NCBI GenBank assembly: GCA_013287375.1
Contig: JABDDX010000003.1
Location: forward strand, 1-64,000
DNA: 64,000 nt
DNA from: Bacteroidota bacterium
GTDB taxonomy: Bacteria; Bacteroidota; Bacteroidia; Sphingobacteriales; Sphingobacteriaceae
Direction: 5' to 3'
A program made the position numbers and the translations under genes. The notes under the pieces were generated by a model. It made no database searches. It was not told where the DNA came from and saw only the letters and a program-made list of their open reading frames with translations. Shown in pieces: positions 8,015 to 8,450 of the stretch (position 1 is the stretch's first letter; each line of letters starts with the position of its first letter).

Positions 8015-8047
8015 TTTGGTTCTTAAACATTTATCACCCTATATTTG
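8015..8047 (+). promoter_or_regulatory. Bacteroidota sigma-A promoter of the metY-metX-hom leader
   Basis: TTTG at 8015-8018 and TATATTTG at 8040-8047 are separated by 21 bases, matching the TTTG / TAnnTTTG consensus and spacing for Bacteroidota housekeeping promoters. The predicted start near 8054 lies about 50 bases before the SAM aptamer, giving a leader of roughly 400 bases before metY. Confidence 0.7.
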
Positions 8048-8103
8048 TAGTAATATTTGGTAGTGATACTAAATCAGATCAAATCCCTTCAAAAAGGTTT
8101 TGG

Positions 8104-8209
8104 TTTATAAAGAAGCGGCGAGAGATCAGGCTCAACTACCCGCTGGCAACCCTTAAAATTTTAAGAAGGTGCCAATTCCTGGCCCGGTAAATACCCCGGG
8201 GGATATAAA
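8104..8209 (+). promoter_or_regulatory. SAM-I (S-box) riboswitch aptamer
   Basis: The conserved S-box core is present: GGCAACCC (about 8145-8152), then GGTGCCAATTCC (about 8168-8179). The helices can be drawn. P1 pairs tttata (8104-8109) with tataaa (8204-8209). P2 pairs agcgg with ccgct. P3 is the perfect cttaa/ttaag hairpin. P4 pairs cccgg with ccggg. SAM binding should lower expression of the downstream met genes. No classical terminator follows directly, so the expression platform is unclear. The aptamer ends only nine bases before a small ORF. Confidence 0.88.
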
Positions 8210-8218
8210 TTAACGACC

Positions 8219-8323
8219 ATGAAAAGTTTAAAAAACATCCCGTCATTCAATGATGCCCAAAGAGGCAATTTAGTTTATACGTATAGCTATTCTACAGGCT
8301 GTATTTGTATGTGTTGCTGTTGA
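8219..8323 (+). CDS. Cysteine-rich leader peptide ORF
   Basis: This short frame of 34 codons begins with ATG at 8219, nine bases after the SAM aptamer, and ends with TGA at 8321. The peptide starts MKSLKNIPSF and ends TGCICMCCC, so five of the last seven residues are Cys, with one Met, immediately before the stop. It is too short and too skewed to be an enzyme. The arrangement is what one expects of a translation-coupled attenuator sensing charged tRNA-Cys, by analogy with polycysteine leader ORFs described in mycobacteria. Translation and regulation are inference; the ORF itself is plain in the sequence. Confidence 0.65.
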   Translation: MKSLKNIPSFNDAQRGNLVYTYSYSTGCICMCCC

Positions 8324-8450
8324 AGCAGTACACGTCCTTTCTTTCTTAATTTCTGAAAAAAACGCGTGTTACCTCCGGGGGATAGTATTATCCTTTCGTG
8401 ACCCAGCCCAACAAATTCAAATTTTCAATCACCTGTAAAATACAAATATC

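Follow-up and report, generated by a model that had tools for sequence, protein, structure and literature searches.

Upstream ORFs with runs of Cys codons were predicted as leaders in Actinobacteria (PMC1262725). In mycobacteria, polycysteine leaderless ORFs act as cysteine-responsive attenuators, according to the passage of PMC13236596 that cites Canestrari et al. 2020. The uORFC-8-2 motif is located upstream of cysS in Rhodobacterales, and attenuation was proposed for it (PMC8632094). For Bacteroidota, PMC9723704 describes signs of leader peptide attenuation in amino-acid operons of Flavobacterium.

Control by two sensors has also been described. According to the account of Andre et al. 2008 in PMC2940859, the ubiGmccBA operon of Clostridium acetobutylicum is controlled by a Cys T-box and an S-box antisense RNA, and the leader of Salmonella mgtA consists of a Mg2+-sensing element and the proline-codon ORF mgtL (PMC6460261). 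When the start codon lies 15 nt or less behind a SAM-I aptamer, the riboswitch is regarded as directly controlling translation initiation, with the ribosome binding site in the 3ʹ side of P1 (PMC2258182).

Here we analysed a stretch of 64 kb (hereafter the window) from a MAG of the soil genus Mucilaginibacter. Its control region in front of the homocysteine genes looks as if it reads both end products of sulfur assimilation. An initial annotation, which knew of no published description of a SAM-I riboswitch paired with a Cys leader peptide, agrees with our search of the open-access literature: neither this pairing nor any Cys leader peptide in Bacteroidota was found described there.

Organization of the leader and the metY-metX-hom operon

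The leader elements and the operon are located within 8015-12143 on the plus strand of the window. Strain L196 has a MetY 99% identical to that of the window, and close relatives carry the name Mucilaginibacter. A Bacteroidota-type promoter, TTTG-N21-TATATTTG, was assigned to 8015-8047 from its sequence and a pattern count, the pattern having only three matches on both strands of the whole 64 kb. No promoter was found by a sigma-70 scan of the window. Downstream of the promoter, cmscan against Rfam detected a full-length SAM-I riboswitch aptamer (RF00162) at 8102-8211 with 73.0 bits against a cut-off of 44.4 (E = 3.6e-15). An Rfam scan of the window gave no T-box RNA at the gathering threshold.

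The aptamer is followed by a leader ORF at 8219-8323, taken from the ORF list and represented by homologous leaders in relatives, which starts with ATG, has 34 codons and ends in MKSLKNIPSFNDAQRGNLVYTYSYSTGCICMCCC-stop. The run C-I-C-M-C-C-C directly before the stop (8300-8320), with Cys codons at 8300-8302, 8306-8308 and 8312-8320, is the proposed sensor of Cys-tRNA. Among the other ORFs of the window, only a short minus-strand frame at 42196 has at least four Cys in its last ten codons. The order of promoter, SAM-I aptamer and 34-codon ORF ending CICMCCC-stop in front of metY-metX-hom was thus as the initial annotation had given it. The ORF does lie closely behind the aptamer, but the gap measured 7 nt instead of nine.

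The stop codon of the leader is separated by 127 nt from metY (8451-9770), which encodes an O-acetylhomoserine (/O-acetylserine) sulfhydrylase. Its product matched PF01053 and, with 685 bits against a cut-off of 495, TIGR01326 (O-acetylhomoserine aminocarboxypropyltransferase/cysteine synthase). The next gene (9850-10905) encodes a MetX-like homoserine O-acyltransferase, for which the best model was TIGR01392 at 341 bits, under that model's cut-off of 500. The third gene, hom (10905-12143), encodes homoserine dehydrogenase (PF00742 and PF03447; NF004976 above cut-off). Elsewhere in the window, a cobalamin riboswitch was found at 26891-27089 on the minus strand (111 bits). The ORF downstream of it is 637 aa or longer, and its start resembles an outer-membrane transporter.

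Conservation of the Cys-run ORF in Mucilaginibacter

For comparison, metY loci were gathered by MetY similarity and distinct upstream regions were counted. A detector of Cys-run ORFs found one before metY in 60 of 61 distinct Mucilaginibacter regions. The same detector found a single such ORF on the opposite strand of these regions, and 40 rounds of dinucleotide shuffling gave 0.03 on average. The Cys-run ORF before metY occurs much more often than expected by chance.

The last four codons encoded Cys in 51, 57, 59 and 57 of the 61 distinct leaders, and both TGT and TGC occurred at each of these positions. The ORFs were 31-40 codons long, Met residues were common in their tails, and the Cys run reached up to the stop codon. 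The pooled pN/pS, calculated from equal-length pairs, was 0.63, and therefore the body of the ORF is weakly constrained. A conserved Cys run with TGT/TGC exchange and a drifting body is what one would expect to see in a codon-sensing leader. A short ORF, clustered Cys codons and their conservation with synonymous change, by which a ribosome-mediated Cys attenuator is recognized, were all observed. The initial annotation had expected the Cys run to be kept in relatives with drifting flanks and synonymous changes, and had named a lack of conservation of the frame or of the Cys codons as evidence against its reading. The 61 leaders followed the expectation, and no such lack of conservation was encountered.

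RNA structures between the leader and metY

Three hairpins were predicted by folding on the plus strand. Hairpin 1:2 (AUGUGU..ACACGU, 8309-8335) holds the end of the Cys run together with the stop codon, and was also matched by a terminator-like scan (8310-8332); its folding energy was -9.8 kcal/mol. A U-rich tract is located behind it in several relatives, its folding signal was weak (mean z -0.88, 46 relatives), and the hairpin with its U-rich tail is weak as a terminator, with many relatives missing the terminator criteria. Hairpin 2:3 (ACACGU..GCGUGU, 8330-8369) has strand 2 in common with hairpin 1:2, so that ACACGU in Mucilaginibacter has two alternative partners, the Cys codons and an ACGUGU further downstream. 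Judged by predicted folding energy, the conservation of this hairpin is clear (mean z -3.49, 46 non-redundant relatives). Covariation for this hairpin was not significant, with 97 of 1000 shuffles reaching the observed count, and it cannot prove the helix because the core pairs are nearly invariant. These comparisons used anchored segments of the leader RNA; a MAFFT alignment displaced the core of strand 3 in some rows. Hairpin B (GGAUA-GUAU-UAUCC, 8380-8393), behind which there is no U-tract, had a mean z of -1.67 in 46 relatives with a varying stem sequence.

A canonical intrinsic terminator was found neither in the 127 nt that separate the leader of the window from metY nor behind the leader in Mucilaginibacter. 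The signal from leader to metY in this genus may pass through weak intrinsic termination at hairpin 1:2, through Rho or through RNA stability.

Cys-run leaders followed by terminators in relatives

Three genomes of the family coded f35 have no SAM-I but keep the Cys-run leader at metY, and strong intrinsic terminators (-17 to -20 kcal/mol, with U-tracts) lie behind it. The clearest case is L263, where an antiterminator of 9 bp without mismatch (GUGUCUGGA/UCCAGACAC) begins 3 nt after the Cys run; L272 has one of 6 bp (AAGGGG/CCCCUU), and the candidates of L264 are weaker. On their predicted structures, these metY leaders are textbook attenuators. Terminators and antiterminators in this arrangement give the expected direction of the response, namely that low cysteine would switch expression on. 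In a Flavobacteriales MAG (L107), a hairpin of -15.5 kcal/mol carries the Cys codons in its 5ʹ arm and is followed by UUUUUUUCU (seven U), which makes it a clear terminator as well.

These loci also bear on the kind of stalling. If a small molecule triggered arrest of the nascent peptide at the stop codon, as in TnaC, instead of ribosomes waiting for Cys-tRNA, the Cys run would be expected to end at the stop codon, as it does in Mucilaginibacter. However, the number and spacing of the Cys codons vary, and the run in f35 lies in the middle of the ORF, well ahead of the stop codon. We regard such an arrest as highly improbable and retain Cys-tRNA starvation as the proposed trigger.

Cys-run leaders in front of other genes

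The genome of the window has two more Cys-run leaders, both without SAM-I. One, MSYNKTIISSRYFLGLQGFKKCMMCMCCCC-stop, precedes a gene for an AhpC/TSA-family redoxin (L343, G000:C42, minus strand; ending at 455 of the reversed locus), and the other, MKAFLHFHMNTLTALSIAPVQRMCCACCCC-stop, precedes a SusC/SusD pair (L342, G000:C1, minus strand; ending at 448 of the reversed locus). Among relatives, a Cys run was present within 500 nt upstream of the redoxin gene in 26 of 30 cases and of susC in 11 of 30. The strict test, limited to 300 nt, was passed by 20/30 redoxin regions (shuffle mean 0.07) and 11/50 susC regions (shuffle mean 0.17).

Several other features were noticed at these loci. At L343, a second short ORF, MHHTRYTPTSKYLKYYRVSYGLYRCC, is nearer to the redoxin gene than the MSYNKTIISSRYFLGLQGFKKCMMCMCCCC leader, and similar second Cys ORFs (YGLCRCCC, FRMCYCCC) were seen at the redoxin loci of relatives; the redoxin gene may carry two Cys leaders in tandem. 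Behind the SusC/SusD leader of L342 lies a strong hairpin, AACCGGCAAGG-AAG-CCTTGCCGGTT. The genome has another susC, with 69% identity in the N-terminus, and a match to TGTACCTGTTGTTGT is located about 260 nt upstream of it. Palindrome-like boxes, CTACTAAATTAATAG and CTACATATTTAGTAG, lie near promoters upstream of the L342 and L343 leaders and are possibly a common operator of both. When the pattern TGYATGTGYTGYTGY was searched across 61 family genomes, mostly chance frames were obtained, together with the metY leaders and one susC leader. As a genome search, TGY-run patterns were swamped by chance and by opposite-strand repeats of the Gln/Ala/Ser type.

Two explanations of the Cys run that do not involve cysteine sensing can be weighed against these leaders. 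The ORF product might be a small functional peptide that binds metals or takes part in redox chemistry, with its position being incidental; Cys-rich tails are able to bind metals, and Met is frequent in the tail. Conservation is restricted to the Cys run, however, while the body drifts at the pN/pS given above, similar runs are attached to unrelated bodies before unrelated genes, and the f35 run is placed mid-ORF. A functional peptide is therefore very unlikely. The codons might instead be kept for RNA pairing in hairpin 1:2, where AUGUGU of the Cys run can pair with the downstream ACACGU. TGT and TGC are exchanged at all four last codons, though, the f35, redoxin and susC leaders keep the run in different RNA surroundings, and the folding signal of this hairpin is weak, so that we give pairing hardly any weight as the reason for the Cys codons. 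Cysteine sensing remains our preferred reading of the run.

Supply of cysteine was also considered. A CysKM-family match was found in all 26 Mucilaginibacter genomes searched, with CysK above the curated cut-off in 16 of them; cysE matches in these genomes were mostly strong, none reaching the curated cut-off. Lack of cysE/cysK was rejected as a full explanation of the cysteine control, since CysK was above cut-off in 16/26 genomes. The genomes without CysK above cut-off may depend more heavily on homocysteine for cysteine.

Pairing of SAM-I with the Cys-run ORF across Bacteroidia

SAM-I together with a Cys-run ORF before metY was found in several families of Bacteroidia. Examples are Pedobacter, MAGs of Cyclobacteriaceae, Saprospiraceae and Flavobacteriales, and the families coded f8, f9, f34 and f63. 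RF00162 was matched in 20 of 20 relatives checked. Outside Mucilaginibacter, 20 of 41 metY upstream regions passed the strict Cys-run test; among the failures, L067 and L072 retain a shorter Cys tail, and others lack both SAM-I and the Cys run. In two f8 genomes, an ORF directly behind the aptamer has no Cys run. No Cys-run ORF was found at the SAM-I sites that were retrieved upstream of genes other than metY, such as metH, metX and metB-like ones.

Leaders of the Sphingobacterium type at metY (L094, L102, L105 and L217) have SAM-I with few or no Cys; that of L217 ends in QACCITRMR, and L102 and L105 have R-M-R-stop frames. Leaders of the Pedobacter type (L087, L089, L092, L093, L095, L096, L101, L104, L111 and L112) have a CUUCC..GGAAGG hairpin in common. 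Behind it come another hairpin and UACG, after which there is no U-tract.

The distance between aptamer and leader was measured with Rfam coordinates. Of 35 loci, 34 had the leader ATG 2-15 nt behind the aptamer (median 8 nt), and in the remaining one (L276) an ATG overlapped the aptamer end. Translation initiation in Bacteroidota depends on an open A/U-rich stretch upstream of the start codon. In the window, the proposed initiation region (8204-8218, plus strand) consists of the 3ʹ strand of P1 (AUAUAAA) plus the spacer before the leader ATG; AUAUAAA would be the open A/U-rich stretch, and SAM would occlude this region. The median of 8 nt falls within the distance taken as a sign of direct initiation control (PMC2258182), and this spacing, kept in 34/35 loci, makes it most likely that SAM gates translation of the leader peptide, the aptamer controlling initiation on the leader ORF instead of acting in parallel.

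Parallel action would mean that the two elements are independent, SAM-I acting further downstream and the leader ORF sensing only cysteine. Cys leaders do stand alone elsewhere, as at f35 metY, redoxin and susC. On the other hand, leaders of different families have their start codon at a fixed place behind the aptamer (median 8 nt), no second platform under SAM control was observed, and independence is therefore unlikely. SAM gating of the leader is the reading adopted below.

A proposed two-input leader for SAM and cysteine

We propose that the region is a two-input leader, an attenuator that senses Cys-tRNA and whose own translation is gated by SAM. The SAM-I aptamer would decide whether ribosomes start on the leader ORF 7 nt behind it. 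When SAM is high, P1 would close over the initiation region, the leader would be left untranslated and the operon would be off. The Cys codons at the leader end would respond to the level of charged tRNA-Cys; under cysteine shortage, ribosomes would stall on them, the downstream RNA would rearrange and metY-metX-hom would be expressed. The operon is thus expected to be on when SAM and Cys-tRNA are both low.

We consider this proposal probable. Sequence comparison established the parts, their conservation, the fixed spacing from aptamer to ATG and the canonical Cys attenuators at metY without SAM-I; from these we infer the occlusion of the start codon by SAM, the stalling, the direction of the response and the route of the signal to metY in Mucilaginibacter. 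The two-input leader suggested in the initial annotation gained support in this way, and the pairing extends to other Bacteroidia families.

Cys-run leaders at metY, redoxin and SusC/SusD genes suggest a cysteine-starvation regulon of Bacteroidota, which might be findable by a simple scan for Cys-run ORFs. The chances are about even, in our view, that the riboswitch-regulated ORF is an attenuator leader peptide computing SAM-low AND Cys-low within such a wider regulon of metY, redoxin and SusC/D leaders. If so, the leader would be a natural logic gate in which one riboswitch is connected in series with one leader peptide, and one enzyme step feeding methionine and cysteine would be tunable by both end products.

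Comparison with known systems

The initial annotation compared the ORF with the mycobacterial polycysteine ORFs. The comparison holds for the way of working, not for membership. Both are short ORFs that precede sulfur genes and have their Cys run close to the stop codon, and the mycobacterial case likewise has no obvious intrinsic terminator. The present ORF differs in being from Bacteroidota, coupled to SAM-I, located before metY rather than cys operons, and not leaderless: the promoter ends at 8047, and the 110-nt aptamer intervenes before the ORF at 8219.

The uORFC-8-2 motif (PMC8632094) resembles the locus in that the first stem encloses conserved Cys codons of a uORF, but it has two tandem Cys codons, an intrinsic terminator, no riboswitch and a different gene. 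The ubiGmccBA operon, as described in PMC2940859, is alike in that a single sulfur operon is under a SAM sensor and a tRNA-Cys sensor; there, a T-box takes the place of the leader peptide and the S-box acts on an antisense transcript. The mgtA leader (PMC6460261) shares the combination of a ligand-sensing RNA, a codon-sensing leader ORF and attenuation, but responds to ions and proline, and no metabolite aptamer sits where it could block the start codon of the leader. The SAM-I riboswitches of PMC2258182 also have the start codon near P1; in them, the ribosome binding region likewise lies in the 3ʹ side of P1 and initiation is directly controlled. The ORF they control is an enzyme gene, whereas here it would be a leader peptide.
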